Position numbers and translations under genes: made by a program. 64,000 nt of DNA. It comes from Alphaproteobacteria bacterium (GTDB taxonomy: Bacteria; Pseudomonadota; Alphaproteobacteria; Micropepsales; Micropepsaceae). The notes beneath the pieces were generated by a model that saw only the letters and a list, made by a program, of their open reading frames with translations, did no database searches and was not told the origin of the DNA. Within the stretch, counting starts at the first letter, position 1. Each line of letters starts with the position of its first letter. Shown one piece after another: positions 815-32,790 of this stretch. The stretch is taken from positions 124,001 through 188,000 of the forward strand of contig JAJPHG010000018.1 in assembly GCA_021325375.1 (NCBI GenBank), read 5' to 3'.

Positions 815-2392
815 TCAGTGCCGGAAGTGACGCATCCCGGTGAACGCCATCGCGAGGCCCGCATTGTCCGCGGCATCGATGATCTCCTGGTCGCGGATCG
901 AGCCGCCGGGCTGGATGACCGAGGTCGCGCCCGCTTCCGCGACCGTGAGCAAGCCGTCGGGGAACGGGAAGAACGCGTCGGACGCCGCGGCCGAGCCCTT
1001 GGTCATCGGCTCGGCCCAGCCTGCCGCCTTCTGCGCGTCGAGCGCCTTGAGCGCCGCGATGCGCGCGCTGTCGACGCGGCTCATCTGGCCCGCGCCTATC
1101 CCCGCGGTCTGCAGGTCCTTGACATAGACGATGGTGTTCGACTTGACGTGCTTACCCACGGTGAAGGCAAAGAGCATGTCGGCGAGCTCGGCGTCCGAAG
1201 GCTTGCGCCTGGTGACGACCTTGAGGTCGGAAGCGGCGACATGTCCGTTGTCGCGCGTCTGCACCAGGAACCCGCCGGCGACGGATTTGTAGGCGAGACC
1301 GGACGCGTTCGGATCGGGCAGGTCGCCCGCGATCAGCAGGCGCAGGTTGCGCCGCGCGCTCAGGATGCGGCGCGCGTCCTCGTCGGCGTCGGGCGCGATG
1401 ATCACCTCGGTGAAGAGCTTGGCGATCTCTTCGGCGGTCGCGCCGTCGAGCTTGCGGTTGAAGGCGAGGATGCCGCCATAGGCGCTGACCGGATCGCAGG
1501 CGAGCGCTTTCTTGTAAGCTTCGAGGAGATCGTGGCCCAGCGCCACGCCGCACGGGTTCGCGTGCTTGATGATGGCGCAGGCGGGGCGCGCGAACTCCGC
1601 GACCAGCTCATAGGCCGCATCGGTGTCGTTGATGTTGTTGTAGGAAAGCTCGCGGCCCTGGAGCTGCTCGGCGGTGGCGACGCCGTAGCGCTTCTCGCCG
1701 GTCACGTAGAACGCGGCCGATTGGTGCGGGTTCTCGCCATAGCGCAGCGCCTGGCGCAGATGACCGCTGAGCGAGCGCCGCCGCGGCGCTTTCTCGTCGA
1801 GCTGATCGGCAAGCCAGCCCGACACCGCGCTATCGTAAGCGGCGGTGCGGGCGAAGGCGGTCTGCGCGAGATTCCGGCGCAGCGCGAGCGAGGTCGCGCC
1901 CTTGTTCGTATCCATCTCGGCCAGCACGGCCGCATAATCTTGCGGATCGACGACGACGGTGACCCAGTCGTGGTTCTTCGCCGCGGAGCGCGTCATCGCC
2001 GGACCGCCGATGTCGATGTTCTCGATCGTCTCGTCATAGGAGGCGCCTTTGGCGACGGTCGCCTCGAAGGGGTAGAGGTTGCAGACGAGCAGATCGATGC
2101 CCTCGATCCCATGCGCGCGCATCGCCTCAGCGTGATCGTCCTTGTCGCGCAGCGCCAGCAATCCGCCATGGATTTTCGGATGCAGCGTCTTGACGCGGCC
2201 GTCCATCATCTCGGGCGAGCCGGTCACCTCCGACACGTCGGTGACGGCAAGCCCCGCGTCGCGCAGCGCCTTGGCCGTGCCGCCGGTGGAGATGAGTTCC
2301 GTGCCGTGGCGCGCGAGGCCCTGGGCGAATGGGACGAGGCCCTGCTTGTCGGAAACCGAAAGCAGCGCGCGGCGGATGGGGCGGAGCGTCAT
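815..2392 (-). CDS. purH: Bifunctional AICAR transformylase / IMP cyclohydrolase PurH
   Basis: PurH carries out the last two steps of purine synthesis in the cytoplasm: formyl transfer to AICAR and ring closure to IMP. The start [15 protein letters not shown] and the STGGT and [13 protein letters not shown] segments belong to the N-terminal cyclohydrolase domain. The transformylase domain shows LRYGENPHQ, the catalytic KHANPCG motif and the C-terminal [16 protein letters not shown]. With the start at 2392 the protein has 525 residues, the usual length. An in-frame ATG at 2446 would add 18 residues unlike the family. The call is firm. Confidence 0.97.
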
Positions 2393-2430
2393 CGACGGCG
2401 ACTCGGGTTTTACGTGAGGTCGCCGGGGTC

Positions 2431-2637
2431 TTACTTCCTCGCCCACAAAAAGAGAAGGCCGAGAACGGTGCTCGCGATCAGGGATTGGGTGAAAGGCAGG
2501 AACAGCTTGTGATTGGCCCAGTTGACGGACACGTCGCCGGGGAGAGGATCGAGGCCCAGCCAGGCCACGACGGGCCCCAGGACCAGCGCCCCCGCGGCGA
2601 CGATCATCAGGAAGATCAGGCTACCTGGGATACGCAT
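2431..2637 (-). CDS. DUF2905 small inner-membrane protein
   Basis: A 68-residue protein with two hydrophobic segments, at about residues 5-27 and 48-64. The central LPGDV and the [12 protein letters not shown] stretch match the DUF2905 family, which has no known function and is often found near housekeeping genes. It lies just upstream of purH on the same strand and overlaps the 3' end of a small unnamed frame (2616-2795), so the three may be cotranscribed. Confidence 0.75.
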
Positions 2638-3590: not shown

Positions 3591-4019
3591 ATGAGCGACA
3601 ACCGCAAACAGATCCTGGAGATGCTTGGCCAAGGCCGCATCACCGCCGACGAAGCCGAGCGCCTGCTCGCGGCGCTGGAGGCGCAAGCCTCGCCCGCGCA
3701 AGCCGCGGCCGCGCCGGCGCCCAAATATCTGCGCGTGCAGATCGACGCCGACGACGCGAAGGGCGGCGACGTGCGCACCAAGGTGAACATCCGCGTGCCG
3801 CTGCAATTGCTGCGCGCCGGCGTGAAGCTCGCAAGCGTCCTTCCCCCCGACGCGCGCGAGCAGATGAACGAGGCGCTGCACGAGAAGGGCGTCGGCCTCG
3901 ACATCAACCAGATAAGACCTGAGAACCTCGACGAATTGATCGAGAATTTGCGGGACGTCTCCATCGACATCGCCGGCCGCCGCGGCCGCACCGCGACGAT
4001 CAAGGTGTTCTCGGAGTAG
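3591..4019 (+). CDS. SHOCT-like domain protein
   Basis: A 142-residue soluble protein. Residues 1-30 (RKQILEMLGQGRITADEAERLLAAL) form a SHOCT-like helical pair of the kind at the start of YvlB/LiaX-type proteins. An Ala/Pro linker follows, and then a domain with VNIRVPLQLLRAGVKLASVLP that recurs in these proteins. GAGGAGAC precedes the ATG at 3591. It is the last gene of the operon starting at 2952. In Firmicutes related proteins act in envelope stress; transferring that role here is inference. Confidence 0.65.
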   Translation: MSDNRKQILEMLGQGRITADEAERLLAALEAQASPAQAAAAPAPKYLRVQIDADDAKGGDVRTKVNIRVPLQLLRAGVKLASVLPPDAREQMNEALHEKGVGLDINQIRPENLDELIENLRDVSIDIAGRRGRTATIKVFSE

Positions 4020-4046: not shown

Positions 4047-4075
4047 TTGGCGAACGCCGCCTCTCTCGCTATAGA
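4047..4075 (+). promoter_or_regulatory. Promoter of the interrupted host tRNA-Leu
   Basis: TTGGCG (4047-4052), a 17-bp spacer and TATAGA (4070-4075) form a sigma-70-type promoter whose transcript would begin a few bases before the tRNA 5' end at 4088. Because the tRNA is now cut, this promoter reads from 4088 towards the integrase gene. Confidence 0.7.
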
Positions 4076-4087
4076 GCTAAACCGCGT

Positions 4088-4126
4088 GCCCGAGTGGTGG
4101 AACTGGTAGACGCACTGGACTCAAAA
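4088..4126 (+). pseudogene. tRNA-Leu(CAA), 5' half
   Basis: The sequence has the acceptor strand GCCCGAG, a Leu-type D arm with GGTAGACGCA, the anticodon stem strand CTGGA and the loop CTCAAAA. It then runs into unrelated AT-rich DNA at 4127. The matching 3' half is at 32538-32585, with acceptor strand CTCGGGC pairing perfectly. Joined, the two give an 87-nt tRNA-Leu with anticodon CAA. In the present arrangement neither side restores the gene. Confidence 0.9.
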
Positions 4127-4198
4127 AAGGAAATGAACGAAAAAATACAGCAAAAACAAATAGTTATAATTATCAAAGGCTTACACAAAGCTTTCACA
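4118..4198 (+). other. attL: core repeat and arm-type sites
   Basis: The core GACTCAAAA (4118-4126) covers the anticodon loop. Two short related sequences follow, CTTACACA (4180-4187) and CTTTCACA (4191-4198). The same two octamers occur near the other end of the element at 32462-32469 and 32451-32458. This is what arm-type integrase binding sites look like. The partial dyad AAAGGC...GCCTT around 4175-4203, with a T run after it, could also act as a weak terminator between the tRNA promoter and the integrase. Confidence 0.6.
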
Positions 4199-4238
4199 GC
4201 CTTGCTTTTTCCGGCAAAAGCGCGTATGCGTACGCGTG

Positions 4239-5630
4239 ATGAGTGGGACACTCGATCTCGCGGGCGGAAAGCTCCACCTCTACAAGCGTGAGAACAGCGA
4301 CGTTTGGCAGTGCTCGGCCTATATGGCGGGCCGGAATCATCGCGTCTCCACGAAAGAGCGCGATGTCGAGCGCGCGAAGGAAGCCGCGCAGGAATGGTAT
4401 CTCGGCCTGCGCGTGAAGAAGCGGACCGGCGAGCTTGAGGGTGGCCCTACCCTTGCTCAAGCTGCCGCGAAATTCCTCCCCGAATACGAAACCCTCACGG
4501 CGGGCGAGCGCAACCCCGAATACGTCAAGAGTCACGGCGACCGGCTCCGTGTCCATCTCCTCCCCTTTTTGGGCAAGACGCCGGTGACGCGCATCGGCGC
4601 TCAGGCCGCGCAGGACTACCGCGTGCACCGCAAGACCAAGCCCAAGGAGGCCTTCGAGCGCGAAGCGCTCGAAGCGAAGAAAGTACTGGAGGCGAAGGAG
4701 CAGGGGAAAGTCTATACGCCGAAGAAGCCGTGGACGGCCCCGGCCAATTCCACACTCAAGCACGAGATCGTCACGTTGCGGCTCGTGCTCAAGACCGCGC
4801 AGCGCCTCGGCTGGATCGAGCATGTGCCCGACCTCTCGCCGCCCTATCGCGGCTCGGGCAAGATCAGCCACCGCGCATGGTTCACGCTCGAAGAATACAA
4901 CGAGCTATGCCGGGTGACGCGCGACCGCGCGAAGGACCCGCCCAAGCCGCGCTGGAAGTGGGAATGCGAGCAGCTCAACAATTTCGTCGTCTTCATGGTC
5001 AACACCGGCCTTCGCCCCGACGAGGCCGCGCGGCTGGAATTCCGGGATGTCGAGATCGTCGCGGACCGCGCGACGGGCGAGACGATCCTTGAGATTAGTG
5101 TGCGCGGAAAGAGGGGCGTCGGCTATTGCAAGAGCATGCCGGGTGCCGTCTATCCGTTCGAGCAGCTAAGCAAGCGCCTCCGCGCCAAGGACCCGAAGTC
5201 GCGCCAGTCGAAAGGCGGGCCTTCGGAGGCGCAGAATGGTGACAAGGGTCAGCGCAGCGATTTGGTGTTGCCCGGCCCGACCGATCTGTTGTTTCCGGGC
5301 TTGCGGTCCCATCACCTCAACGCGGTCCTCGAAGAGATGGGGTTGAAATCCGACCGCGAGGGGCAGGCGCGCAGCGCGTATTCTCTCCGCCACACCTACA
5401 TATGCCTCCGGCTCATGGAAGGAGCCGACATCTACGCCATCGCCAAGAACTGCCGCACCAGCGTCGAGATGATCGAAAAATTCTACGCCGCCCATATCAA
5501 GAACACGATCGATACGACCAAGACGAACGTCAGGTCACAGGACCGGCCGAACGGCCCCCCCTCTAAGCGTAAAGCGAACGCGAAACGCCCATCGGCGGCC
5601 CGAAAAGGCGGGTACCCGCCGCGCCGCTGA
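4239..5630 (+). CDS. Tyrosine-type integrase
   Basis: This 463-residue site-specific recombinase is presumably responsible for insertion at the tRNA-Leu anticodon loop. The N-terminal part contains an arm-binding-like region and a core-binding domain (about residues 70-200) with a charged helical insertion at 130-165. The catalytic domain shows Arg259 in NTGLRPDEAARL, Lys291, the YSLRHTY box with Arg384 and His385, and the nucleophile Tyr416 in EKFYAAH. The ATG at 4239 directly follows an in-frame GTG at 4236. Transcription may come from the host tRNA promoter at 4047. The tail after residue 430 is rich in Lys/Arg/Pro. Confidence 0.92.
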   Translation: MSGTLDLAGGKLHLYKRENSDVWQCSAYMAGRNHRVSTKERDVERAKEAAQEWYLGLRVKKRTGELEGGPTLAQAAAKFLPEYETLTAGERNPEYVKSHGDRLRVHLLPFLGKTPVTRIGAQAAQDYRVHRKTKPKEAFEREALEAKKVLEAKEQGKVYTPKKPWTAPANSTLKHEIVTLRLVLKTAQRLGWIEHVPDLSPPYRGSGKISHRAWFTLEEYNELCRVTRDRAKDPPKPRWKWECEQLNNFVVFMVNTGLRPDEAARLEFRDVEIVADRATGETILEISVRGKRGVGYCKSMPGAVYPFEQLSKRLRAKDPKSRQSKGGPSEAQNGDKGQRSDLVLPGPTDLLFPGLRSHHLNAVLEEMGLKSDREGQARSAYSLRHTYICLRLMEGADIYAIAKNCRTSVEMIEKFYAAHIKNTIDTTKTNVRSQDRPNGPPSKRKANAKRPSAARKGGYPPRR

Positions 5631-5636
5631 TAGAAC

Positions 5637-5665
5637 TTGGCGAACGCCCATGTTCTGGCTATAGC
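5637..5665 (+). promoter_or_regulatory. Promoter of the element's tRNA-Leu, near copy of the host one
   Basis: TTGGCG (5637-5642), a 17-bp spacer and TATAGC (5660-5665). The -35 region shares the 12-mer TTGGCGAACGCC with the host tRNA promoter, and the spacing to the tRNA start is 11 nt against 12 nt in the host. The replacement tRNA therefore appears to bring its own housekeeping-type promoter. Confidence 0.7.
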
Positions 5666-5676
5666 TTTATCAGGCT

Positions 5677-5762
5677 GCCCCAGTGGCGAAACGGTAGACG
5701 CACGGCACTCAAAATGCCGCGCCCTTGCGGGCGTGTTGGTTCAAGTCCGACCTGGGGCACCA
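5677..5762 (+). tRNA. tRNA-Leu(CAA), complete, carried by the island
   Basis: An 86-nt tRNA with encoded CCA. The acceptor stem GCCCCAG/CTGGGGC is perfect, the D arm contains GGTAGACGCA, the anticodon stem CGGCA/TGCCG holds the loop CTCAAAA (anticodon CAA), the long variable arm is of Leu type, and the T arm GTTGG/CCGAC holds TTCAAGT. It differs from the split host tRNA-Leu(CAA) at several stem positions, including the anticodon stem, while keeping the same loop. It would decode UUG and so replace the function lost by insertion at 4126. Confidence 0.95.
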
Positions 5763-5875: not shown

Positions 5876-8014
5876 ATGGCGAACAAGTACTCCATGCGCA
5901 TATCGCGCCTCACGGTCGATAAGCTTGGCGTCAAGCTTTACGACCGCGCGTCTGCCGTCATCGGTGAACTCATTTCGAACTCCTACGATGCCGACGCCAC
6001 TACCGTTACGATCGATGCTCCGATGGGTCAGTATCTCGCGACGCAGGTCGGCGGCAAGGTTGTGGACAAAGGTTTGAGCGTTAGCGTCATCGACGACGGG
6101 ATCGGGATGACGCCACAAGAGTTGCAGAATTTCTACCTCATCGTCGGCAAGGAAAGACGCAACGACCCAAAACAGGGTAGCATCTCCAGAAAGTTCAAGC
6201 GCCACGTTACGGGACGCAAAGGCGTGGGTAAGCTCGCGCCCTTTGGCATATGTCGAACGATCGAAGTCATAAGCTCCGGCGGCGATCCCATCGAAGGCAA
6301 AGATGCCAACGGTAAAAAGGCGAAAGGCTACCTCACTTCACACGTCATTCTCGATTACGAGAAAATCGCGGTGGATGACGGCGACAAGAATTATGAGCCA
6401 ACCGTGGGGAAGTTGGATGGGACCGTCAGCAAAGCGAGCGGAACGACGACACGTCTAAGTGGCTTCGCCTATCGGCGGGTTCCGGACATGGATGATCTAT
6501 CGCGCCAGATAGCTCAACGCTTCGGTCTTCCGACGAAGAACTGGAGCATCGTGCTTCATGATAACACGAAAACGAAAGGTTCCGCGGGCTACGAGGCGAA
6601 GGTCGGTGACTTCAAGATCGACACGATGCCCAACACCAAGATCGTATTTTCCGGTCCTGACAACACGTTCCGAAACGGTGCCGCATCGTCCAAATATCAC
6701 GTCATAGGGCCTGATGGCGAAGCCATCGATGATTTAACAGCCGGGTTCTTCCATGAAGGCCAGTTCTATCCCGTTCGCGGATGGGTTGGTTACTCCAAGG
6801 TTCCCTACAAGGACGACCTGATGGCCGGCATCCGCATCTATTGTCGTGGAAAGATCGCGGCCCAAACGACCGTTTTTGGGCGCAAGGCCGGTTTCACGGG
6901 CGAGCACAACGTCCGGTCCTATCTCGTTGGTCAATTGGACGCCGATTGGCTAGACGAGAAAGAAGACCTCATTCAAACGGATCGAAGGGACCTGCTTTGG
7001 TCCGACGAGGTTGCCACCGCGTTCGAACAGTGGGGACAGAAAATCGTCGCGCGCATTGGTACGTTGGCACGCGATCCGATGCGGAAGACGGCAATCGATA
7101 AATTCTTCGAACTCGGTAAGGTGGAGAAGCGCGTAGCCGCAGAATTTCCCGGAATCGAACAGAAGACCATCCGCGATCAAGCCATTGAGGTGGCGCGTAC
7201 CCTTGGAAGGGCGATATCTCCGGGTGATCTTGATGACGAAGCAGTCGTGGAAGACTTCGTACAGCTCACGCTGCTGTTAGCGCCGCACATCACGCTCGAT
7301 GAAATGTTGCGCGCGGCCGCCGGCGACGCGGCAACACCTCTGGCGGCAATTTCGAATATTCTTCGCACCGCTCGGTTGGCCGAGCTCGCCTCTTTCGGCC
7401 GGATTGCCGAAGATCGTATTCGCGTGATCGAGAAGCTTGAACAACTCAAGGACGATGACGAGACTAACGAAGACGAATTCCAGCGGTTGATTGAAGAGGC
7501 GCCATGGCTAGTCAACCCGCAGTGGGCGCCTGTCTCCGCGAACACATCTCTAAATACGCTCCGGCGTGAGTTTGAAAAATTCTACAAAAAAAACACCGGA
7601 AAGGACATTTATCTTGGCGAATTCATCGCCGGGAAGAAACGTCCCGACTTCGTCCTTTCGAGTCAGGATACTTACCTCCAAATCATCGAAATCAAAAAAC
7701 CGCATCACAAAATCACAAACGCCGAAATGGACCGAATTATCGTCTACGACGAGCAATTCGAGGCATTTCTGGACGATCCCAAGCACGCCGAGTTCAAGGC
7801 TTTGGTGCCTGGCTACAAAATTACGCTCGTTGCGGATGGCCTTTCTCTGACCGGAGCGCAGAAAAAATCCTACGACGCGATGAAGAAGGACGGGAAGCTA
7901 GATCACATTGCGTGGCGATCGTTCCTTATGCGCACACGAAAGATGCATCGCGCGTTTCTGGACGAAGCAGAGCGTCAAAAGTCAATCGCGCGTGATATTG
8001 GGAAGACGCCGTGA
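5876..8014 (+). CDS. GHKL ATPase fused to a predicted PD-(D/E)xK (Shedu/DUF4263-like) nuclease
   Basis: A 712-residue protein. The N-terminal GHKL ATPase domain shows the N box ELISNSYDAD (Glu31, Asn35), DDGIGM at 73-78 and the lid motif GRKGVGKLAPFG at 113-124. This is the fold of Hsp90, MutL and MORC. The C-terminus has EEAPWL followed by RPDF (Asp591) and IEIKK (Glu605, Lys607), the spacing of a PD-(D/E)xK nuclease as in DUF4263. AAGGAGG precedes the ATG. The stop overlaps the methyltransferase start as GTGA, so the two are coupled. It is related to the protein at 9765. An ATP-driven DNA-sensing or restriction role is inferred from context. Confidence 0.82.
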   Translation: MANKYSMRISRLTVDKLGVKLYDRASAVIGELISNSYDADATTVTIDAPMGQYLATQVGGKVVDKGLSVSVIDDGIGMTPQELQNFYLIVGKERRNDPKQGSISRKFKRHVTGRKGVGKLAPFGICRTIEVISSGGDPIEGKDANGKKAKGYLTSHVILDYEKIAVDDGDKNYEPTVGKLDGTVSKASGTTTRLSGFAYRRVPDMDDLSRQIAQRFGLPTKNWSIVLHDNTKTKGSAGYEAKVGDFKIDTMPNTKIVFSGPDNTFRNGAASSKYHVIGPDGEAIDDLTAGFFHEGQFYPVRGWVGYSKVPYKDDLMAGIRIYCRGKIAAQTTVFGRKAGFTGEHNVRSYLVGQLDADWLDEKEDLIQTDRRDLLWSDEVATAFEQWGQKIVARIGTLARDPMRKTAIDKFFELGKVEKRVAAEFPGIEQKTIRDQAIEVARTLGRAISPGDLDDEAVVEDFVQLTLLLAPHITLDEMLRAAAGDAATPLAAISNILRTARLAELASFGRIAEDRIRVIEKLEQLKDDDETNEDEFQRLIEEAPWLVNPQWAPVSANTSLNTLRREFEKFYKKNTGKDIYLGEFIAGKKRPDFVLSSQDTYLQIIEIKKPHHKITNAEMDRIIVYDEQFEAFLDDPKHAEFKALVPGYKITLVADGLSLTGAQKKSYDAMKKDGKLDHIAWRSFLMRTRKMHRAFLDEAERQKSIARDIGKTP

Positions 8015-9141
8015 CCGATTTCACGGCCATAGATTTGTTCGCTGGCGGCGGCGGACTGACCGTCGGCCTCAAAAGTGCTGGTTTCTTTGTGGAAGCCGCC
8101 GTCGAAGTCGACTCCAGTGCGTACGAGACTTACGTAGCAAACCATCCAGACGTACGAGCGTACAAACAAGATATTCGCACGGTTTCTGGGCGTGATCTCC
8201 TTGCGCATGGTCAAACGAAGCGCATCGATCTCGTAAGCGGATGCCCACCTTGTCAGGGGTTTACGAGTCTTACCGCGAAATACAAAAAAAATGACCCCCG
8301 GAACGCACTTATAAACGACATGCTGCGCATCATTCGAGAGTTGCGCCCGCGAGCCGTAATGATGGAGAACGTTCCAGGTCTACTAAAAAGAGGAAAGCGC
8401 CGGTTTCAGAAATTCGTTCGCGAACTGGAGGCGGCTGGTTACATAATTCGATATGGTATCTTGCAGGCTGCCGATTTCGGCGTCCCGCAATACCGACGAC
8501 GCCTCGTCTTACTTGCTGGTCTAGGTTTCGAGATTCCCTTGCCTACGCCTACGCATTCTAGGAACGGCGGGGATGGATTGCGCAAATATAAGACCGTGAA
8601 GGATGCGATCGGAGGAATGAAGAAGCCTGTGCGGTACGCAGACCTTCGCGCAAAGAAAGTTTCGCCGAAGAATACGGATTGGCACATCGTTAGGACGATG
8701 ACGCCTGAAAACGAAGCTCGCATGCGAGCGGCCCGTGTTGGCCGACAGTGGTGGAAAATTCCTTCGAAGCTTAGACCCAATTGCCATAAAGGGCGAGAGT
8801 ATAGGGGATTTGGTAGTGTCTATGGACGAATGCGTTGGGCAGACGCATCGCCTACCATCACTGGCGGCTGCACGACATTCAGCAAGGGGCGCTTCGGGCA
8901 TCCCCAAGCTCATCGGACGATTTCGGTGAGGGAGGCGGCGATGCTCCAAACGTTCCCGAAAAACTATGTGTTCGATACGGGAAGTATTGAGGATGCGTGT
9001 AATATAATAGGCAACGCTCTTCCTTGTATGTTGGCCGAAGTTCTAGCGCGGCAGTGTCGGAAACTCATAGCCGAGCAGCCCAATCCCGGCGCACCGAGGA
9101 CGAAGTCGATAAAAGGCAGGAAACGTGCCCACCGCACATAG
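8011..9141 (+). CDS. DNA (cytosine-5) methyltransferase
   Basis: A 376-residue C5 cytosine methyltransferase that transfers a methyl group from SAM to cytosine in a specific DNA site. Visible motifs in order are DLFAGGGGL (motif I), GCPPCQGF with catalytic Cys81 (IV), ENVPG (VI), QYRRRLVLL (VIII), a target recognition region around residues 190-290, REAAMLQTFP (IX) and GNALP (X). The GTG start overlaps the stop of the GHKL ATPase gene. The vsr start lies within its last 17 nt. It is the modification half of a restriction-modification-like operon. The target sequence cannot be read from the protein. Confidence 0.95.
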   Translation: MTDFTAIDLFAGGGGLTVGLKSAGFFVEAAVEVDSSAYETYVANHPDVRAYKQDIRTVSGRDLLAHGQTKRIDLVSGCPPCQGFTSLTAKYKKNDPRNALINDMLRIIRELRPRAVMMENVPGLLKRGKRRFQKFVRELEAAGYIIRYGILQAADFGVPQYRRRLVLLAGLGFEIPLPTPTHSRNGGDGLRKYKTVKDAIGGMKKPVRYADLRAKKVSPKNTDWHIVRTMTPENEARMRAARVGRQWWKIPSKLRPNCHKGREYRGFGSVYGRMRWADASPTITGGCTTFSKGRFGHPQAHRTISVREAAMLQTFPKNYVFDTGSIEDACNIIGNALPCMLAEVLARQCRKLIAEQPNPGAPRTKSIKGRKRAHRT

Positions 9142-9541
9142 ACGGCGGTCGAGACATGGGCCGCGCATGTCGAAGGTTCGGCAGAAGGACACTGCTCCGG
9201 AATTGATCGTTAGACGTCTGGCGCATTCCATGGGATTGCGCTTCCGGCTGCATCGCCGCGATCTTCCAGGAAGCCCGGACCTCGTTTTTTCTTCCCGCCG
9301 AGCCGTCGTATTCGTTCACGGTTGTTTCTGGCATCGCCATGCCAACTGTAAGCGTGCATCCATGCCGAAGACGCGCCTGCAATTCTGGCAAGAGAAATTC
9401 GACCGAAATGTAGAAAGGGATCATAGGGTCGAACGAGCGCTACGGCGAGCGGGATGGCGCGTCGCGGTGATTTGGGAATGCCAAACCAAGAAGCCAGAAG
9501 TCGTCCGCCGAAAGATCAAACGATTGACAACGCCAATCTAG
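9125..9541 (+). CDS. vsr: Very short patch repair endonuclease Vsr
   Basis: Vsr nicks DNA at T:G mismatches formed when 5-methylcytosine deaminates, and usually accompanies a C5 methyltransferase. The 138-residue frame shows RDLPGSPDLVF with catalytic Asp52, VFVHGCFWHRH with candidate metal-site residues, and VIWECQ near the end. The GTG start at 9125 overlaps the methyltransferase by 17 nt; an internal ATG at 9167 is an alternative. It supports the reading that the upstream enzyme is a true C5 methyltransferase. In some systems a Vsr-like protein acts as the restriction nuclease, which cannot be excluded here. Confidence 0.92.
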   Translation: MPTAHRRRSRHGPRMSKVRQKDTAPELIVRRLAHSMGLRFRLHRRDLPGSPDLVFSSRRAVVFVHGCFWHRHANCKRASMPKTRLQFWQEKFDRNVERDHRVERALRRAGWRVAVIWECQTKKPEVVRRKIKRLTTPI

Positions 9542-9764
9542 CAGAGCGCCCTTACGGTCGTCGCATCTCGCCAAAATTGCTTCCAGAATGTTCGTCAGGG
9601 TACGCATACATGTCGGCCAGTAGCGGGCTAGTCGAACGGGCTGGACAAGCCTGACCAATGCATCCTATCGATTAGCGGTATGGTATTTTCTACCAATAGG
9701 TGAAAAGTCGGCCCGTCCGTCGCAAACTACTCCAATCACGCCCTTACCAGCTAAGGAGCATATC

Positions 9765-11753
9765 ATGGTCAAGCGTCGTGCGGCTGTCGCATCTAAGCAG
9801 CAGAAAGTTCTCCTGCCGGGCCGCGACCCAAAGGAATTGGTCCTCACTTATGCCGGCAACATCATCAAGCATCTTGGCGTCCAGATGTATGCCGGCCGGC
9901 CCGTTCCTGCCATCGCAGAGCTAATTTCCAACTCCTGGGATGCCGACGCCAAAACCGTAGACGTTCGTGTTCCGATGGGCGAGCCATGGGACCCGAGAAA
10001 TCCCGAGCACATCATTCAAGTTGTGGACGACGGCAACGGAATGACATGGGACATGATACGCGACGCGTATCTAGATGTTGGTCGCGACAAACGAGAGGCC
10101 GACAACACCGACAAATCGCCGGGTGGGCGCTTGTTGCAGGGAAGAAAGGGCATCGGAAAACTGGCCGGTTTCGGTGTCGCCGATGTCCTCGAGGTGCAGA
10201 CGGTATACAAAGACTCTGATCGAGCGGTCCGCGAAAAGACCCTGATTTGGTTCAAGCTCGACCTATTAAAATTGAAAGCGATCGAACGGCGACCGGCACC
10301 GGCGGACGTCATCTTTGCGGGTCCGATCAGCAAGGCTCCTCGGGGTACTCGGACCAGGAAGGGTACGACCATAATTCTGCGCAAGTTGCATGCGCGAAAG
10401 GCACAGAATGCCGACCTATTTCACCACAGCATGGCCGAGCGCTTTCTATTCATCGGTCCGAAATTTCGCGTTCGACTCAACAACGAGGATCTACGTCCGG
10501 AAGACATCCAGCTTCAGTGGCGTTGGCCTAAGAAGAAGGGGTGGATCAAAGACGAAGTGCCTGGCTGTGGACCGGTTCAGTACTGGATTGGCTTCACACC
10601 AACGCCCAGAAAGCAAAACGAAGGTCAGCTAAGCGGCATTCTCATCTATACGAGAAAGAAAATCTCGCAGGAAGCAATGGTCTTCGATATAAGCGGCGGC
10701 GTTACTGGGCAACACGGACTGCGCTACCTCGTTGGTATGGTGAGGGCGGAATGGCTCGATGCGGGGATTCACGAAACCGACTTCATCGCCACGCCGCGTG
10801 ATTCTATAGCGTGGGAGAGTCCGCAAGGTGTCGCGTTCAAGGAATGGGGCCAACAGCTAGTCAAGAAACACCTCGCGGAATGGGCAAAACTTCGCGCCAA
10901 ACTGCGTGAGAAGCACATCAAGGAAATGAGCCCGGCGATCGCCGCTCGCATAAGCCAATTAGCGCCTTCGTATCGGGACGTAGCGCTTCAGTTCGTTGAT
11001 AAGTTCAAATCGCTCGAAATGGAGCCCGGCGAGTTTGAAGACATACTTTCGTGGTTCTTAGATGCGTTAGAGAACGCCACGCTGCGAAGTATTCTTCAAA
11101 AGCTGCGGGATTCGGACGTGCGTGATTTGGGAGAGCTAGACGATCTTCTCTCAAAAATGGAAATTCGTACGGCAGTCACGCTTCTGCAAATCATCGAAAG
11201 TAATTTGGCCGCGATCGAGACGCTCGAAAGAATGCACCACCAAGACGCGAAGGAACGGGGCGTGCTTTCTAAGCATCTAGAAGGCAATCCTTGGCTCATC
11301 GACACCACTTGGATGCTCAACAAAGCGGAAGGCCGCGTGGCGACCTGGATTGAGAGTGAATTTGGGAAAAAAATGAAAAGGAAAAAGCGATCGGGAGATG
11401 ACGATCGCGCCGATTTTTTCTGTGTGGCGGTTGGCGGAACGCTTCACATTGTTGAAATTAAGCGCGGAGCATTCGTCGCCAAGCTCGCCGACATCGTTCA
11501 GGCTAACAAGTACCGCGACTATGTCCTCAAACGGTTTGAAGAAATTACAGACAGAAAGGCGATAAAATACTCTCAGGTCCAGAGTCACCTTATCGCTGCA
11601 AGGTTGCATGAAGATGCCATATCTACGGCGGAGTCGTTGGAAAATACAGGCAAGGTGTTCTTCACTCCATGGGACGATCTCATCGAACGGGCTAAGCATA
11701 GCCACCATCAGTTTCGGGACGCACTTCAGAAGCGAGCCTCCGAAATTGCCTGA
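9765..11753 (+). CDS. Second GHKL ATPase fused to a predicted PD-(D/E)xK nuclease
   Basis: A 662-residue relative of the protein at 5876. GHKL motifs are AELISNSWDADAKTV (Glu52, Asn56), DDGNGM at 88-93 and GRKGIGKLAGFG at 126-137. The C-terminal half is helical and contains LEGNPWL, then RADF (Asp550) and VEIKR (Glu564, Lys566). The Asp-to-Glu spacing of 14 residues is the same as in the first protein. AAGGAG lies 7 nt before the ATG. A 223-bp gap separates it from vsr, so it may have its own promoter. Two non-identical ATPase-nucleases in one locus suggests a heteromeric machine; that is inference. Confidence 0.8.
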   Translation: MVKRRAAVASKQQKVLLPGRDPKELVLTYAGNIIKHLGVQMYAGRPVPAIAELISNSWDADAKTVDVRVPMGEPWDPRNPEHIIQVVDDGNGMTWDMIRDAYLDVGRDKREADNTDKSPGGRLLQGRKGIGKLAGFGVADVLEVQTVYKDSDRAVREKTLIWFKLDLLKLKAIERRPAPADVIFAGPISKAPRGTRTRKGTTIILRKLHARKAQNADLFHHSMAERFLFIGPKFRVRLNNEDLRPEDIQLQWRWPKKKGWIKDEVPGCGPVQYWIGFTPTPRKQNEGQLSGILIYTRKKISQEAMVFDISGGVTGQHGLRYLVGMVRAEWLDAGIHETDFIATPRDSIAWESPQGVAFKEWGQQLVKKHLAEWAKLRAKLREKHIKEMSPAIAARISQLAPSYRDVALQFVDKFKSLEMEPGEFEDILSWFLDALENATLRSILQKLRDSDVRDLGELDDLLSKMEIRTAVTLLQIIESNLAAIETLERMHHQDAKERGVLSKHLEGNPWLIDTTWMLNKAEGRVATWIESEFGKKMKRKKRSGDDDRADFFCVAVGGTLHIVEIKRGAFVAKLADIVQANKYRDYVLKRFEEITDRKAIKYSQVQSHLIAARLHEDAISTAESLENTGKVFFTPWDDLIERAKHSHHQFRDALQKRASEIA

Positions 11754-13931: not shown

Positions 13932-14304
13932 GTCATCCCTGCCACGACGCACACCAACCACTCCATTAAAGACGATAGCGAATCGACCATCCCCGTCCGC
14001 GTTTCACGCCAGTCTCCCTTTGCACTCTTTCTTCCGTTCTGCATGCCAGAATTTTGGGCGCGCAAGGTCTGCGGCTTTTGACGCTCCTCCCTTTCGCCGT
14101 TCAAACAGCCACGCAAACGGCCTCCGAATTGATGCGCAGTTCTGCATGCGCGTGCGCCGCCGTCAAAACCGAACGCGGGCCCGTCCTTCGGACACCCATT
14201 ACGGCATAGCCTCCGGCTTTTTGACCGCGCCGCTTGTTCGCGCATGCGGTCGAACCGCATCGAGGCCGCGATAAGCATGGCTTCACAGACGAAAGGAAAC
14301 GAAC
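13932..14304. other. Intergenic stretch, no gene seen
   Basis: About 370 bp with no convincing frame on either strand. The last bases give AAAGGAAACGAAC just before the ATG at 14305, a usable ribosome binding site, so the stretch probably contains the promoter and leader of that small gene. Confidence 0.45.
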
Positions 14305-14517
14305 ATGAGCAACAAGCAAACCGCCAAGACCCTTCCCGCATTCCGCGTCTACAGCGTCGCGAGGAACGGCGAGAAGAAAGCAAGCTGGGCCGAGATCGGC
14401 GCAGCGTGGCGTCACAAGGACGGCAAAGGCTTCAACCTTCAGTTCGCGGCGCGTCCGCTCGAAGGCGCGGCAATCGTCCTTCGCACGGTCGAGCCGAAGA
14501 AGGCGGGCGCTCTTTGA
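14305..14517 (+). CDS. Small conserved mobile-element protein
   Basis: A 70-residue soluble protein with AFRVYSVARNGEKKASWAEIGAAWRHKDGKGFNLQFAARPLEGAAIVLR. The pattern W-x-E-I-G-A-A-W-x-H-K-D-G-K-G-F followed by a V-L-R end is one I associate with small proteins common on alphaproteobacterial plasmids and islands, but I know no function for it. A good ribosome binding site precedes the ATG. Confidence 0.6.
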   Translation: MSNKQTAKTLPAFRVYSVARNGEKKASWAEIGAAWRHKDGKGFNLQFAARPLEGAAIVLRTVEPKKAGAL

Positions 14518-14706
14518 GCGCCTTACCTTCGCAGCAGGCTCGCGTGATCGTTACCCGGACGGTCACGCGGGTCCGTGCGCGTCACGGTCCGGCATCGCGG
14601 AAAGCCGCGCCTATCATCGCGCCGTGGGCCAATTCGCTACGCCGCAACATCGGCCGATTGCATACAATTGTCCTCATCTCGACGAATCGAGTGGGTAGCG
14701 CTATCG

Positions 14707-14733
14707 GTGAACAGAATGCTGTATTCTGTTCAC
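14707..14733 (+). repeat. 27-bp recombination-site-like palindrome, copy 1
   Basis: The perfect 11-bp arms GTGAACAGAAT and ATTCTGTTCAC flank a 5-bp centre GCTGT. It lies 65 bp upstream of a small tyrosine recombinase gene. A second copy in opposite orientation is at 16310-16336. The 11+5+11 layout resembles sites used by tyrosine recombinases; an operator is the alternative. Confidence 0.65.
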
Positions 14734-14798
14734 TCGTTCTTCCCCGCGTCAATGGCCTCTGCTCGCTTTTTTTAGCGAGACGAACGAGGTGCTTGCCA

Positions 14799-15389
14799 AT
14801 GACGCAATCGCTATTCGACCAAACCGGAAGCCGTAAATACCTTGTCGCTCGCGAAAGGCTCTCGTTTGTTTCCGCCGCCGTAGCCGAAGGCGGAACTGTT
14901 GGCGCGTTTTGCCTGACGCTCGCTTTCACTGGGGCGAGGATATCCGAGGTATTGGCTCTCCGCGCAGAAAGCATAGACGCGAGCAACGAGGCCATTGTGT
15001 TCGAGACGCTCAAACAGCGGAAGCGTGGGGTGTTCCGCGCGGTTCCCGTACCTCGGCGATTAGTGGATTTGGTATTGAGAGCAACGCAAGGATCAGGGCG
15101 TAGATCGCGCTCGCGTTTTTGGCCGTGGGGCCGCACGATGGCTTGGAAGCATGTTAAGCGGGTCATGAAAAGCGCCGGAATTGCCGATAGCCTATGCAAG
15201 CCGAAAGCGCTTCGACATGGCTTCGCTATAGACGCGGGTCAAAATGGTGTGTCGCTTAATATCGTACAACGATGGATGGGACACGCCCGATTGGAAACCA
15301 CAGCGATCTATGCTGGTGCCATCGGCGAGGAAGAGCGGGCGCTCGCACGACGGACATGGAGGGCTTTGCAAGGCGCGCTGCGGAACTAG
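14799..15389 (+). CDS. Small tyrosine recombinase
   Basis: A 196-residue recombinase consisting almost only of the catalytic domain, as in FimB/FimE-type invertases. Catalytic residues are all visible: Arg47 in TGARISE, Lys75, Arg139 and His140 in KALRHGF, His162 in WMGHARLETT and Tyr171 in AIYAGA. The frame stays open far upstream, but the sequence before the ATG at 14799 has no protein character and contains the 27-bp site. The gene ends within the 3' end of the HNH gene on the other strand. Confidence 0.85.
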   Translation: MTQSLFDQTGSRKYLVARERLSFVSAAVAEGGTVGAFCLTLAFTGARISEVLALRAESIDASNEAIVFETLKQRKRGVFRAVPVPRRLVDLVLRATQGSGRRSRSRFWPWGRTMAWKHVKRVMKSAGIADSLCKPKALRHGFAIDAGQNGVSLNIVQRWMGHARLETTAIYAGAIGEEERALARRTWRALQGALRN

Positions 15390-21016: not shown

Positions 21017-21664
21017 CTACAATCCGAGCCACCGAAACAGAAAGAACGCGCCGCCGCCGACCAAAGCGAGCGCGGCGATCCAGCCGAGCGCTTCGGAAAG
21101 TCCCGAATGCCGCCGATTGTCTGGCGCGGTACGCGCCGGGTCATAGGTCAGTACCCGGTCGTCATCGACGGGCCATTGAAAAGCGTCCCGGCAGATGGTG
21201 CCGACGAGGATATGCTGATTGCCGACGAATTCGCGCGTCAGTGCGACGTGCAGGTGCCCGATTTCGACCGGCGAAGCGGTCGCGCAATTGACGTGCAAGG
21301 GTGTGTCGTCGACGAACTCGGCCAAAAGGACTTGCGCGCTGTCGCTCAGCGCGACCTTCCCGCCGATGCTCTTGCCCCCGAGATGCTGACGGACATCCAG
21401 CTCTTCCTTCGTGTAATAGAGGCCGTCCGCCGAATGGTTGCTGAAACCGCGCAGATGCTCCCACGGCTTGCCTTCTTCGAAGGAACCGTGGCGTACCGTG
21501 CCGCGCGCGACGAACAGCAATATGCCGCTCGTCGCGTCCTTCATTATGCGGCACTCGACGCGCGCGCGGCGCATCGCTTCGGGCGAGGCGATGTTGCGGT
21601 CCTCGCACCACGACACGACGGGAAATCCCGCCGCGTCTTTCCCGATCTGCAATTCGTGGATCAC
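21017..21664 (-). CDS. Tail-anchored hypothetical protein in the coupling-protein operon
   Basis: A 215-residue protein starting at a GTG that overlaps the coupling protein stop (GTGA). The soluble part contains GDSAQ-like and HLHVALTREFVGN segments with no recognised domain. The last 25 residues form a transmembrane helix (LGWIAALALVGGGAFFLF), so it is tail-anchored with most of the protein in the cytoplasm. Coupling to the VirD4-like gene suggests it anchors or regulates it. Confidence 0.6.
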   Translation of the reverse strand: MIHELQIGKDAAGFPVVSWCEDRNIASPEAMRRARVECRIMKDATSGILLFVARGTVRHGSFEEGKPWEHLRGFSNHSADGLYYTKEELDVRQHLGGKSIGGKVALSDSAQVLLAEFVDDTPLHVNCATASPVEIGHLHVALTREFVGNQHILVGTICRDAFQWPVDDDRVLTYDPARTAPDNRRHSGLSEALGWIAALALVGGGAFFLFRWLGL

Positions 21665-23220
21665 GCGCCGGACTCCGGTTTGGCAGCGTATTCTGGGTCG
21701 GGATCGTAGAGACCCTCGAACATCGCATCCCTGTAGTAGAAGAGGCGCTCCGCAATCGCCGGATTGTCCTCGGCGTTGAAGATCAACACGCGGCCCTTCT
21801 TGCGGCCGAGCGCAAGGCGCAGCTCGTGCTCGGCGAGAAGCGGAACCTCGCGGCGGTCGTCCTGCAACGGAGACGCGCCCTGGCTGAGGGCGCTGTTCGA
21901 TGCGCCGCTGCGGACTTTCTCGACGATGCCGGTCCGGCCGAGACTGTCCGAAAGGGTCTTCAGCGTTTCGGAATCGCTGATGCCGAACGCCGTGATGACT
22001 CCGCAATTGGCGAAGAAGGTCTCCCACGCTTCCTTATAGTGCTGTTTTAACTGGCCGACATTCTGGACGATCAGCCAGAGCTTGACGCCGAAGCCGGCCA
22101 TGAGCCCGGCCGCTTTCTCGATCGAATCCATGTGGCCGAGCACCGGGAATTCGTCGAGCACGAAGAGAACTGGCGGCTCGGGCTTTCCTTGCGTGCGCTC
22201 CATGATCGTGATCGCGAGCAGGATCACGAGGCGCAGCCACCGCGCATGCGTCGAGAGGCGCATCGCGGGCAGGCTCAGATAGAGCGTCATCCTCGTGCGC
22301 TTCAAATCCGCGAGCCGGAAGGTGCTGTGGCACAGCGCGCTTTCGATTTTCTCGCTGTCGAGCCATTGAGTTTGCGTGCGCGCAGTCGAGAGAACCGAGC
22401 CGCGCTCGTTATCGCCCATCGCATCGAGCTGTTCGGCGACGCCTTGGCAGACCGAAGCGTGCCGCCCCTCCTGCTCCTTGAGGATGTGAACGAGCGCCGC
22501 TTGCGCGTTGAGGGTCCCGTTCTCGTCGATATCGCTTGGAGTCTGGAAATCGATCTTGTCGCGGATGCTTCGGTCGGTAAGCATCAGGAGCCGCCGCACC
22601 GTGACGAGATTACGCCGCGCGGGATCCTCGTCGGCGACCGCGACGAGGATCAGGGCGCGTATGAGCGCTTGCGCCGACTCGGTCCAATGCTTTTCGCCAT
22701 GCTCGGGATGAGTAATCAGCGCATCCGCGAACATCGCGGCGTCGTCGATCAGGTCCGGCGAATCGAGATCGAGTTCGGCAAGCGGATTGAACGACGAGGC
22801 GGCGCGGCCGCTGACGCCGAACGGATCGAGCACATGGACGCTCTGCCCGAGCCCGCCCTTGCCGCCGCGTGCGCCAGGCCCCCGGCGTCCGGCCGTATGC
22901 CGCGCCAGTTCCCCCTTCGGATCGACGACCAGCGCCGACCCTTCGTAGAACATCAGATTGGGTTCGATCAGGGAGACACCCTTGCCGGCGCGGCTGCCGG
23001 CAATGGTCATGACATGCCGGTCGTCGTTCCAGCCGATCAGCCGTCCGGCGCGGCGGCCAAGCAGAAGGCCGCCCGTTGGGTTCCAGCTCGGGCCTTGCAT
23101 CTCTTCCGGCTTTAACCAGCGTGCAAACAAGCCGCGTTCGATGCCGCGCGCCAAGGCACGTTCGCCGTGGCCGCGCGGGAGGTCGTCGCGTAGCTCCTGC
23201 TCGAAAAGGTCGTCGGTCAT
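21661..23220 (-). CDS. VirD4/TraG-family type IV coupling protein
   Basis: A 519-residue ATPase that links the relaxosome to a secretion channel. Walker A is GSRAGKGVS (residues 75-83) followed by the family pattern IEPNLM and VVDPKGEL. Walker B is VLFVLDEFPVLGHM near residue 350, and VQNVGQLKQHYKEAWETFFANC follows as in TraG. It has no N-terminal transmembrane pair, which is unusual; the tail-anchored partner at 21017 may supply membrane contact. The gene is divergent from mobC/relaxase across the oriT candidate region. Confidence 0.88.
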   Translation of the reverse strand: MTDDLFEQELRDDLPRGHGERALARGIERGLFARWLKPEEMQGPSWNPTGGLLLGRRAGRLIGWNDDRHVMTIAGSRAGKGVSLIEPNLMFYEGSALVVDPKGELARHTAGRRGPGARGGKGGLGQSVHVLDPFGVSGRAASSFNPLAELDLDSPDLIDDAAMFADALITHPEHGEKHWTESAQALIRALILVAVADEDPARRNLVTVRRLLMLTDRSIRDKIDFQTPSDIDENGTLNAQAALVHILKEQEGRHASVCQGVAEQLDAMGDNERGSVLSTARTQTQWLDSEKIESALCHSTFRLADLKRTRMTLYLSLPAMRLSTHARWLRLVILLAITIMERTQGKPEPPVLFVLDEFPVLGHMDSIEKAAGLMAGFGVKLWLIVQNVGQLKQHYKEAWETFFANCGVITAFGISDSETLKTLSDSLGRTGIVEKVRSGASNSALSQGASPLQDDRREVPLLAEHELRLALGRKKGRVLIFNAEDNPAIAERLFYYRDAMFEGLYDPDPEYAAKPESGA

Positions 23221-23836
23221 GTCGAGCCCCCGGCCACTTTACACGAGCGCGACCGGACGATCTCATGACGGGAGTCGGAAAAGAATTACACCTTCGCGTG
23301 TGTTCAATCGGAAATTGATGCGAACTTTTTCGATCCCTGCATACGCTCGTACGACACGGAACGGAGTTTCCGGCGGCGCAAGTATTTCCGGTCTGGTATG
23401 TTGCCTTCATTCCGCGCGAACGCCGGAGGGAAGGCAGCTGCCCTGCCTTCCCGTCTCCCCCAAGAGCAGGGTTGAGACCGTAAGAGAAGATGAAAAAGGC
23501 AACCAAAAGCAGATAAGGCAGAGGGCAAGCCATGCGCGGTAGTGCGCTACGTCGTCTCGGTGAAACCGATCCTCCTTGCGCGCCGCGCGGCTTGGCAAGG
23601 GCTGTCCAGCCCCGTGCACCCCGGCCAAAGGGAGCCTTGCTCCCTTGTGGAAACCCAGCGCCGGAACTCTCCGGTTCCGGCACCTCAGGTCCAAGGGTGC
23701 GCCCCTTGGAAATCCGCGCTCATGGAGCCTTGCTCCCCGAGACCCCAGCCTGTCCCGCCATAGCTGCGGAGCAGCGACGGCGGACGCGCAAGTGGCCGAG
23801 CCCCTTTTCGCCCTATCCCCGTATGCGGAACGCGTC
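23221..23836. other. Candidate oriT region with five hairpins
   Basis: A 616-bp gene-free region between the divergent coupling-protein and mobC genes. Inverted repeats are GGGAAGGCAG/CTGCCTTCCC (23428-23452), AAGGGAGC/GCTCCCTT (23628-23646), GCCGGAAC/GTTCCGGC (23660-23681), CCAAGGG/CCCTTGG (23691-23709) and GGAGC/GCTCC (23724-23736). The 13-mer GGAGCCTTGCTCC occurs twice. Position next to mobC and the hairpin density fit an origin of transfer. The nick site cannot be assigned. Confidence 0.55.
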
Positions 23837-24193
23837 ATGAGTCATGGCAGCGAAAAGCGCGTCCGCAACCGGCACCTGACCGTTCGTCTCAGCGACGACG
23901 AACGCGCCGCGATCGACGCGGCGGCGGAGCGTGCCGGGCTGATGCCCGGCAGCTTCGCGCGTCAGGTGCTTCTCGGCGCTCCGGCACCGCGACAGGTCAG
24001 GCGTCCGCCGGTTGAGCGCAAGGAGCTTGCCCGCCTCCTGGGCGAACTCGGCAAAATCGGCGGCAATCTCAACCAGCTCGCCAAGGCGGCGAATACCGGC
24101 GTACTCGTTTATGAAAACGAGATCGACGCCGCCCTTCGCGGGCTTGCCGATGTGCGGGACGCGATCCTGAAAGCCCTTGGGCGTGCGCCATGA
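23837..24193 (+). CDS. mobC: MobC-like relaxosome protein
   Basis: A 118-residue accessory protein that binds near oriT and helps the relaxase. The N-terminal half reads as a ribbon-helix-helix (HLTVRLSDDERAAIDAAAERAGL). The family motif GKIGGNLNQLAKAANTG is at about residues 74-90. The frame is open upstream to 23576, but the ATG at 23837 gives the normal family length. Its end overlaps the relaxase start by 4 nt. Confidence 0.85.
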   Translation: MSHGSEKRVRNRHLTVRLSDDERAAIDAAAERAGLMPGSFARQVLLGAPAPRQVRRPPVERKELARLLGELGKIGGNLNQLAKAANTGVLVYENEIDAALRGLADVRDAILKALGRAP

Positions 24194-27031: not shown

Positions 27032-27265
27032 ATGACAACCGCGAGCGATATAGCCACTTCGATCAAAGATGCGCGCCGGGCACTAAAGCTCCGGCAAGCC
27101 GATCTTGCGGCGGCGGCTGGCGTGGGCCTTCGTTTCTTGATCGAGCTTGAGGCGGGCAAGCCGACCGCACAACTCGGCAAAACGTTGGCCGTCCTCGATG
27201 CGCTCGGACTCGATTGCGATCTCGTCCCCCGGACCGCCACATCCAAACGACGGAGCAAGCTGTGA
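27032..27265 (+). CDS. hipB: HipB-like antitoxin and repressor
   Basis: A 77-residue XRE-type helix-turn-helix protein (IKDARRALKLRQADLAAAAGVGLRFLIELEAGKPTAQLGKTLAVLDALGLD). It would neutralise HipA and repress its own operon. I chose the ATG at 27032, which has GGGGAA 7 nt upstream; an ATG at 27017 lies inside operator O3. The stop overlaps the hipA start as GTGA. Confidence 0.85.
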   Translation: MTTASDIATSIKDARRALKLRQADLAAAAGVGLRFLIELEAGKPTAQLGKTLAVLDALGLDCDLVPRTATSKRRSKL

Positions 27266-32450: not shown

Positions 32451-32537
32451 CTTTCACATTCCTTACACATAGGGTCAATAATGTGGAAATAATCGTTAAA
32501 TATCAAAGACTTGATATTTGACGCGGCAGACTCAAAA
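32451..32537 (+). other. attR: arm-type sites, dyad and core repeat
   Basis: CTTTCACA (32451-32458) and CTTACACA (32462-32469) repeat the octamers of the left end. A perfect dyad AAATATCAA/TTGATATTT lies at 32498-32519, and the core GACTCAAAA is at 32529-32537, fused to the tRNA 3' half. The AT-rich dyad may bind an excisionase or bend the DNA; this is inference. Confidence 0.6.
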
Positions 32538-32585
32538 TCCAGCGCCCGCAAGGGCATGTCGGTTCGATTCCGACCTCGGGCACCA
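32529..32585 (+). pseudogene. tRNA-Leu(CAA), 3' half
   Basis: From the anticodon loop the sequence continues with the stem strand TCCAG, a Leu-type long variable arm, the T arm GTCGG/CCGAC with TTCGATT, the acceptor strand CTCGGGC, discriminator A and encoded CCA (ends 32585). The bases before 32529 do not restore a 5' half. No promoter for it is seen, and any transcript from here could not make a tRNA. Confidence 0.9.
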
Positions 32586-32700: not shown

Positions 32701-32790
32701 GCTCGGCAAGCCAGTCTTCACAAAATCTACCCTTGGTAGTTTCCATTTCCTGCTCTGTAATTGCGCGTCGAATCGATGAGCGCGCGCGGC

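Follow-up and report, generated by a model that had tools for sequence, protein, structure and literature searches.

Can a bacterium whose gene for tRNA-Leu(CAA) has been cut in two by a mobile element still read UUG codons and, if so, with which tRNA? The question is raised by a 28.4-kb element in a 64,000-nucleotide (nt) stretch of DNA (hereafter the window; positions 124001–188000 of contig 8, JAJPHG010000018.1) from an alphaproteobacterium of the Micropepsaceae (assembly GCA_021325375.1; genome G000, 4.77 Mb in 45 contigs). Sequence comparisons make it highly probable that the element is a mobilizable island that brings an integrase and a replacement tRNA-Leu gene as a linked pair, and that the replacement is altered in its core against the element's own integrase. 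The following features carry this reading.

4047–4075, plus strand: promoter-like TTGGCG-17-TATAGA before the split host gene (read from the sequence, putative)
4088–4126, plus strand: 5′ half of the host tRNA-Leu(CAA) (sequence comparison)
4118–4126, plus strand: left copy of the 9-bp core GACTCAAAA
4180–4198, plus strand: arm-type-like repeats CTTACACA and CTTTCACA, left end (pattern search)
4236–5630, plus strand: tyrosine integrase (P0001; PHROG integrase, E 5e-23)
5637–5665, plus strand: promoter-like TTGGCG-17-TATAGC before the replacement tRNA (read from the sequence, putative)
5677–5762, plus strand: replacement tRNA-Leu(CAA), anticodon arm CGGCA-CTCAAAA-TGCCG (ARAGORN; Rfam tRNA, 53.8 bits)
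32451–32469, plus strand: arm-type-like repeats CTTTCACA and CTTACACA, right end (pattern search)
32529–32585, plus strand: 3′ half of the host tRNA-Leu(CAA), including the right core copy (sequence comparison)

The two outer pieces are halves of one gene, since the 87-nt sequence obtained by joining them in silico is called a tRNA-Leu(CAA) by ARAGORN and is 100% identical, over its full length, to the intact gene of the congener G034; a chance match of two halves is thereby rejected. The break point lies in the anticodon loop, and the right core copy (32529–32537) lies 28,411 bp from the left one. ARAGORN calls no tRNA in either the left or the right junction (attL and attR), as the element and its target share only a short stretch, here 9 bp. 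The target tRNA is thus not rebuilt at one junction, as it would be by a conventional genomic island; the short core and the lack of a rebuilt tRNA in attL or attR are features of tRNA-dependent integration, as is an element-borne tRNA with the isotype and anticodon of the target. This tRNA, the sole complete one in the window, begins 46 bp past the integrase stop codon and is 80% identical to the split gene. An earlier note on this DNA had described the cut in the anticodon loop, the absence of restoration on either side and the different, complete tRNA-Leu(CAA) after the integrase, all of which hold; the start that it gave for the 3′ half, 32538, is correct as the first base after the core, but the half that includes the core copy begins at 32529. 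The same arrangement is found wherever both ends of an element were available: in six of six such elements the joined empty site is a tRNA-Leu(CAA), none of the 12 junctions contains a tRNA, and the runs identical at both junctions (9 to 29 bp) rebuild the gene in none. The split gene and the replacement are preceded by a TTGGCG-17-TATAG sequence in the same layout, and a CTAT-type box is present no more than 45 nt upstream of 27 of 59 family replacements, compared with 3.7 expected.

The integrase is a divergent tyrosine recombinase that lies beside attP. It matches Pfam integrase domains only at E 0.014, while among 16 aligned relatives Phage_int_SAM_3 was identified in 12 and Phage_integrase in 10. 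Its predicted structure, of middling confidence (pTM 0.47), matches the integrases of Tn1549, XerA and lambda. Four residues that we take to be catalytic (Arg260, Lys292, Arg385 and Tyr417) are invariant across the 16 sequences. Pairs of the CTTACACA and CTTTCACA repeats occur near both ends of the element and at no other place in the window, as would be expected of the arm sites of an integrase.

Relatives of this integrase were found in 549 stretches of species genomes, and the 80 closest named ones, which include some near copies (L145 and L146), were surveyed. A split tRNA-Leu 5′ half precedes the integrase in 66 of the 80 (63 by pattern, and L150, L202 and L217 by eye), and a complete tRNA-Leu on the same strand follows it in 53 of these 66 (50 of 63, plus the three). 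Forty of the 50 replacements found by pattern are within 300 bp of the integrase; others are further off (L177, L180, L186, L187, L188, L191, L198, L207 and L216) and were identified in longer stretches with intron-aware ARAGORN, the count having used longer stretches for five loci (L177, L188, L198, L207 and L216). In another eight of the 80, the integrase is preceded by an intact tRNA-Met, tRNA-Arg or tRNA-Phe, and none of these loci has a tRNA-Leu after it (tRNA-Leu within 300 bp, 40 of 63 split versus 0 of 8 intact-tRNA members; Fisher p 7e-4). The remaining six loci, which were kept in the denominator of 80, contain no tRNA half (L149, L152, L153, L164, L168 and L195). In these half-less loci, titled Acidobacteria, Planctomycetes or Verrucomicrobia, the integrase is followed by a tRNA-Leu, and an uncut, attP-like core precedes it in at least four, which gives the impression of an element that is not integrated at this site; the cores of L153 and L168 are apparently of the UAG type and in the opposite orientation. 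By record title, the split-and-replace members are mainly from Pseudomonadota and Acidobacteriota. Within the host's own family, 19 of 96 genomes (its own included) have an integrase match at E 1e-20 or better, and in several of these the integrase stands between the split 5′ half and a downstream tRNA-Leu.

The core of the target is highly conserved among these elements, being GACTCAAAA (30 loci) or GACTTAAAA (30 loci) in 60 of 63, GATTCAAAA in two and CACTCAAAA in one. In the replacements, by contrast, it is altered in 50 of 53 cases, by an intron (28), U32 (11), C30 (6), G31 (3) or U31 (2); in the window, the target has G30-A31-C32 and the replacement C30-A31-C32. Outside the 80, eight of nine replacements are also altered (L060, L061, L064, L069, L076, L081, L241, L242 and L243, a set that includes the one in this window). 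The resident CAA genes of the host's family retain GACTCAAAA in 34 of 34 distinct genomes, excluding the element-borne genes of G023, G063, G066 and G093 and the scar genes of G019 and G031. The resulting contrast (24 of 27 CAA replacements altered versus 0 of 34 residents) has a p value of 5e-14, which overstates the evidence since the rows are interrelated and the taxa unmatched. Two integrases with U32 targets (L157 and L181) are accompanied by replacements with C32 and other stem changes. On a quick integrase tree the types of change recur, with at least five changes to U32 and at least three to C30 on well-supported branches, numbers that may be inflated by the labels used (L150, L202 and L217 as "other", unseen replacements as "none"); this points to repeated origins of the core changes. 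The family-wide pattern supports the earlier suggestion that its altered stem keeps the element-borne tRNA from being recognised by the integrase of the same element.

The chromosomal site itself seems to have a history of such exchanges. Two genes mark its left side.

815–2446, minus strand: purH-like gene (AICARFT/IMPCHase; PF01808, E 1e-125), the landmark next to the tRNA-Leu(CAA) site of the genus
3591–4019, plus strand: left-flank chromosomal gene, 142 amino acids, with a homologue at the same place in G045 and G023

All 28 genus loci examined have a purH homologue next to the tRNA-Leu(CAA) site, and in 27 of them it lies upstream in the opposite orientation. The left flank is common to this genome and G045, and the homologue of the 142-residue gene precedes an intact tRNA in G045 and a split one in G023; a relative with an empty site plus both flanks was looked for and not found. 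Immediately to the right of the element is a QueA-like gene (tRNA queuosine synthesis; 32761–33819), the second QueA of the genome, the other being on contig 37. It is peculiar to this genome: a QueA match is present in 49 of 69 genus genomes, its own included, and the QueA proteins of the genus are only 36–42% identical to it.

The CAA genes found at this one site belong to several dissimilar types. The acceptor stems of 22 intact residents are GCCCCNG in 13, GCCCGAG or GCCCAAG in seven and GCGGGCG in two. The split host gene of the window has a full-length match of at least 92% identity in only 10 of 69 genus genomes, two of them element-borne, and in G063 and G023 a gene of its kind (98–99% identical) serves as the replacement on the element. 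The non-target tRNA-Leu(CAG) of the same genome is identical over all 85 nt in 41 of the 69 and matches at 92% or more over at least 83 nt in 60, with weak, partial or no matches in the other nine. An 18-nt remnant of the common genus type (GACGCGGCAGACTCAAAA) persists at the right end of the element. At three further loci (L136, L137 and L247), a 5′ half is accompanied within about 250 bp by an altered or intron-bearing complete gene, with no integrase match at any of the three, which looks like a replacement left behind. The unlike CAA sequences at a single purH-linked site suggest repeated replacement, of which this lineage has probably undergone at least two rounds; the same diversity might also stem from gene conversion or fast drift.

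As the changes in the replacements sit in or next to the anticodon loop, they might instead guard the tRNA of the element from anticodon nucleases of the PrrC, VapC or colicin type, and part of one report on phage tRNAs does read anticodon-loop changes as escape from such enzymes (PMC10264068). The introns bear on this alternative. An intron in the anticodon loop is carried by 28 of the 53 replacements (26 UAA and 2 CAA). The group I model RF00028 was matched at the gathering threshold by L069 (one of four), L155 (one of four) and L140, L141, L150, L160 and L169 (five of 12), and below it, at E 1e-6 to 2e-8, by L064, L070 and L081; the remaining introns fell below gathering or were not given to Rfam, and their class comes from ARAGORN and likeness by eye. 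At gathering, Rfam identified one intron (L155) and one unrelated tRNA in 22 loci that mostly have no complete replacement nearby. A script that seeks the target-type loop and sets the exon ends by anticodon-stem pairing, the loop being partly imposed, could join the exons of all 31 intron genes into such a loop with four to five stem pairs. ARAGORN, on which the loop was not imposed, agrees on the intron length in 25 of the 31, for which it reads TAA or CAA, and mislabels the anticodon in the other six; for L141, its CAA reading was preferred to that of the script. Since the spliced tRNAs would regain the loop of the target, the change acts on the DNA: the mature RNA would gain no protection from a nuclease by an intron that it lacks, while the gene would lose the integrase site. 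The C32 replacements of the U32-target elements L157 and L181 also fit avoidance of the target sequence and not of a single nuclease motif. A shield against the element's own integrase thus appears the better fit, and we regard nuclease escape as quite improbable.

Marginally less probable still is that the replacement tRNA is incidental cargo and that UUG is decoded otherwise, by wobble of the UAA tRNA or by an unassembled gene. A scan of the G000 genome gave 45 tRNA matches, on all of which ARAGORN was run, and its tRNA-Leu genes are TAA, TAG, GAG, CAG and the CAA gene of the island. The TAA gene that wobble would require is therefore present. A hidden second CAA gene was found neither by covariance model nor by pattern in an assembly or scan that is incomplete. 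Against this, 53 of the 66 split members have a tRNA-Leu after the integrase, compared with none of the eight that do not split their target, and searches of three genomes whose element-bearing contig measures 4.8 to 9.2 Mb revealed no other CAA gene. For G066 (one 5.0-Mb contig) the matches listed comprise both halves, the replacement and tRNA-Leu(TAA), and the pattern search returned three places in all; in Bradyrhizobium sp. CCGUVB4N (G098, one 9.2-Mb contig) and Phenylobacterium sp. J367 (G102, a 4.8-Mb contig of a 5.0-Mb genome) it returned only the split gene, the replacement and the TAA gene. The compensation by a separate tRNA gene that had been proposed for this locus is consistent with all of these findings.

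That the tRNA at 5677 is an old resident beside which the element merely inserted is barely credible: its acceptor stem is near the common genus type (GCCCCAG versus GCCCCTG), but it is part of the element, being enclosed by the two core copies, relatives of the integrase have a tRNA-Leu there in many genomes, the place of the intact gene in G045 corresponds to the split gene, and among the loci examined no island-free strain was seen with this tRNA at the same place.

Several observations weigh against a linked integrase and core-altered replacement. No complete replacement is present in the DNA examined for 13 of the 66 split loci. It is partial in four (at contig ends in L144, L155 and L182, with a run of N in L159), the contig ends at the integrase in three (L161, L209 and L214), and none was found in the flank examined in six from Acidobacteriota (L178, L189, L203, L204, L211 and L212), two relatives of which carry a replacement 14.6 and 21 kb away. 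In L198 and L207, where the right end was not located, the replacement is 9–12 kb off and only presumably inside the element. The core GACTCAAAA is unaltered in three of the 53 replacements (L147, L167 and L216, the last 21 kb from its integrase) and in the distant L076, the exception among the nine outside the survey; thus, either an element can do without the change or an alteration elsewhere in the stem is enough. Among bacteria there is natural variation at position 32, and leuX of Escherichia coli has U32. The residents used for comparison come from one family and the replacements from many taxa, and the survey took only the closest 80 relatives, near copies included. The list for G066 omits one further weak (fifth) match. 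Finally, tRNA-Trp and tRNA-Ile(GAT) are absent from the 45 matches of this genome, so either the assembly, with its 45 contigs, or the scan is not exhaustive, and a gap may contain a second CAA gene.

Taken with these points, the reading of a linked pair remains the one that we prefer, and the course of events may be pictured as follows. The mobilizable island would bring in the tyrosine integrase together with the replacement tRNA-Leu, and after integration the host would live on the tRNA of the element, transcribed from a promoter of its own. Excision would make the host gene whole again; a deletion that takes the replacement would be lethal or harmful. The core change, a pattern seen family-wide, would keep the integrase off the element's own tRNA; in relatives, U32, a different stem change or an intron that interrupts the site in the DNA and is spliced out of the RNA may have the same effect.

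The remaining genes of the element indicate how it may move.

5876–11753, plus strand: C5 methylase (8011–9141) between two HATPase-type genes (BbrUII/HgiDII-like)
14244–15389, plus strand: second tyrosine recombinase (Pfam PF00589, E 8e-15)
21661–23220, minus strand: VirD4/TraG-type coupling protein (Pfam PF02534, E 6e-69)
23576–25260, plus strand: NikA/MobC-like mobilization protein and MobA/VirD2 relaxase (Pfam PF21983 and PF03432)
27214–28506, plus strand: HipA-like kinase
28701–29636, minus strand: AbiEii-type nucleotidyltransferase

The combination of an integrase with a relaxase is that of an integrative and mobilizable element, and the VirD4-type coupling protein is the only part of a conjugation apparatus among the open reading frames scanned (part of the total). 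A temperate phage as the carrier was rejected on the basis of the relaxase and coupling protein and of database comparisons. A tblastn search of 50,697 phage records with the integrase gave no match, and 24 of 72,556 plasmid records match it; the family alignment retrieves nine relatives from 2.9 million viral contigs, compared with the 549 stretches from species genomes; and PHROGs on 10 element proteins identified only integrase families and one weak match of unknown function. The element is best called an integrative mobilizable island, as it looks mobilizable and not phage-like. The two HATPase-type genes (5876–8014 and 9765–11753) score 208 and 260 bits, under the restriction-family cut-off of 550. 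In the G066 element, the methylase and the first HATPase gene are 79–88% identical to those here and likewise adjoin the integrase-tRNA pair. Homologues of the second recombinase are located near the elements of G066, G023 and G098.

Other loci show variations on this arrangement. On contig 7 of G000 (173379–198671; L030, L031, L234 and L235), a second element lies between two complete copies of tRNA-Met(CAT); its related integrase shows about 48–50% identity, with one in-frame TAG in the match. L241 (G117, contig 31) has two related integrase genes in tandem, with a split tRNA-Leu(UAA) before them and an intronless U32 tRNA-Leu(UAA) as the replacement after both. In L065 (G030, contig 67) tRNA-Leu(UAA) is split, and the replacement, which lacks the 5′ exon and the start of the intron, is fused to the 3′ end of the integrase; there is no other intronless UAA gene in G030 among the matches listed. 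Extra tRNA-Leu halves, with an intact resident elsewhere, occur in G050 (L131, contig 62; contig 78, 155217–155273) and G061 (L133, contig 203). The 5′ half of G050 has U32 (GATTCAAAA) and no integrase match nearby, and the half in G061 is on a contig with an integrase fragment. Hairpin-like repeats (CCAGGATGGAACCATCCTGG, GGGCCGGAACCGGCCC or close variants) follow the integrase in L177, L178, L189, L203, L204, L211, L212 and L216 of the Acidobacteriota.

More broadly, we lean towards the view that islands of this kind are widespread, that they replace an essential tRNA gene with one armed at the DNA level against their own integrase, and that the group I intron serves as removable armour. If this is true, it would provide a selective reason for, and suggest a function of, group I introns in bacterial tRNA-Leu genes; it would also cause the tRNA-Leu(CAA) of host lineages to be exchanged in place again and again, suggesting how the identity of an essential tRNA gene can shift while its chromosomal location stays fixed. 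Decoding of one codon by the host would become dependent on a mobile element, and the recurrent core change would be a simple, testable rule by which an element avoids attacking itself. A widespread class of chromosomal islands would thereby join the phages as users of tRNA-dependent integration.

The principle of tRNA-dependent integration is not new, having been published for phages. Guerrero-Bustamante and Hatfull described tRNA-dependent lysogeny in the actinobacteriophages Fionnbharth, LeBron and Gaia, a set with a tRNA-Leu-CAA example whose core is 8 bp long, and raised the question of how frequent it is in other settings (PMC10865867). Gaia resembles the present element in its tRNA-Leu-CAA and in having the tRNA downstream of int; the carrier there is a phage, and here a mobilizable island. 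In the parts of that paper covered, core-altered or intron-bearing replacements are not discussed, and the word "intron" occurs only in one reference title. Lo5R7ANS-like prophages of Sinorhizobium meliloti disrupt tRNA-Leu(UAG) and carry a similar tRNA, and their authors suggest that such swaps diversify tRNA genes (PMC11476347). Two such prophages are described, and the portion of the report covered contains no core analysis. Other S. meliloti prophages do rebuild their tRNA, according to part of a further report (PMC12429752). In the openly licensed literature, with subscription journals mostly uncovered, we found no report of the island setting, the breadth within one family, the core rule or the intron armour, and nothing on introns or core changes in element-borne replacement tRNAs.

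Conventional tRNA-targeting islands, as described in the covered part of the Islander report (PMC4383910), share with this element a tyrosine integrase, a tRNA target and bounding direct repeats; they rebuild the tRNA at one junction, whereas this element does so at neither. The eight of 80 relatives with an intact tRNA-Met, tRNA-Arg or tRNA-Phe before the integrase look to be of this conventional type.

In the tRNA-Leu(UAA) of cyanobacteria and plastids, the intron is located in the anticodon loop. The group I introns known there, as presented in the part of PMC4476775 covered, occupy the same tRNA as most of the introns described here, which match RF00028 in cases tested. Unlike those of cyanobacteria and plastids, the present introns are carried on integrative elements, beside an integrase, and are found in tRNA-Leu(CAA) as well.

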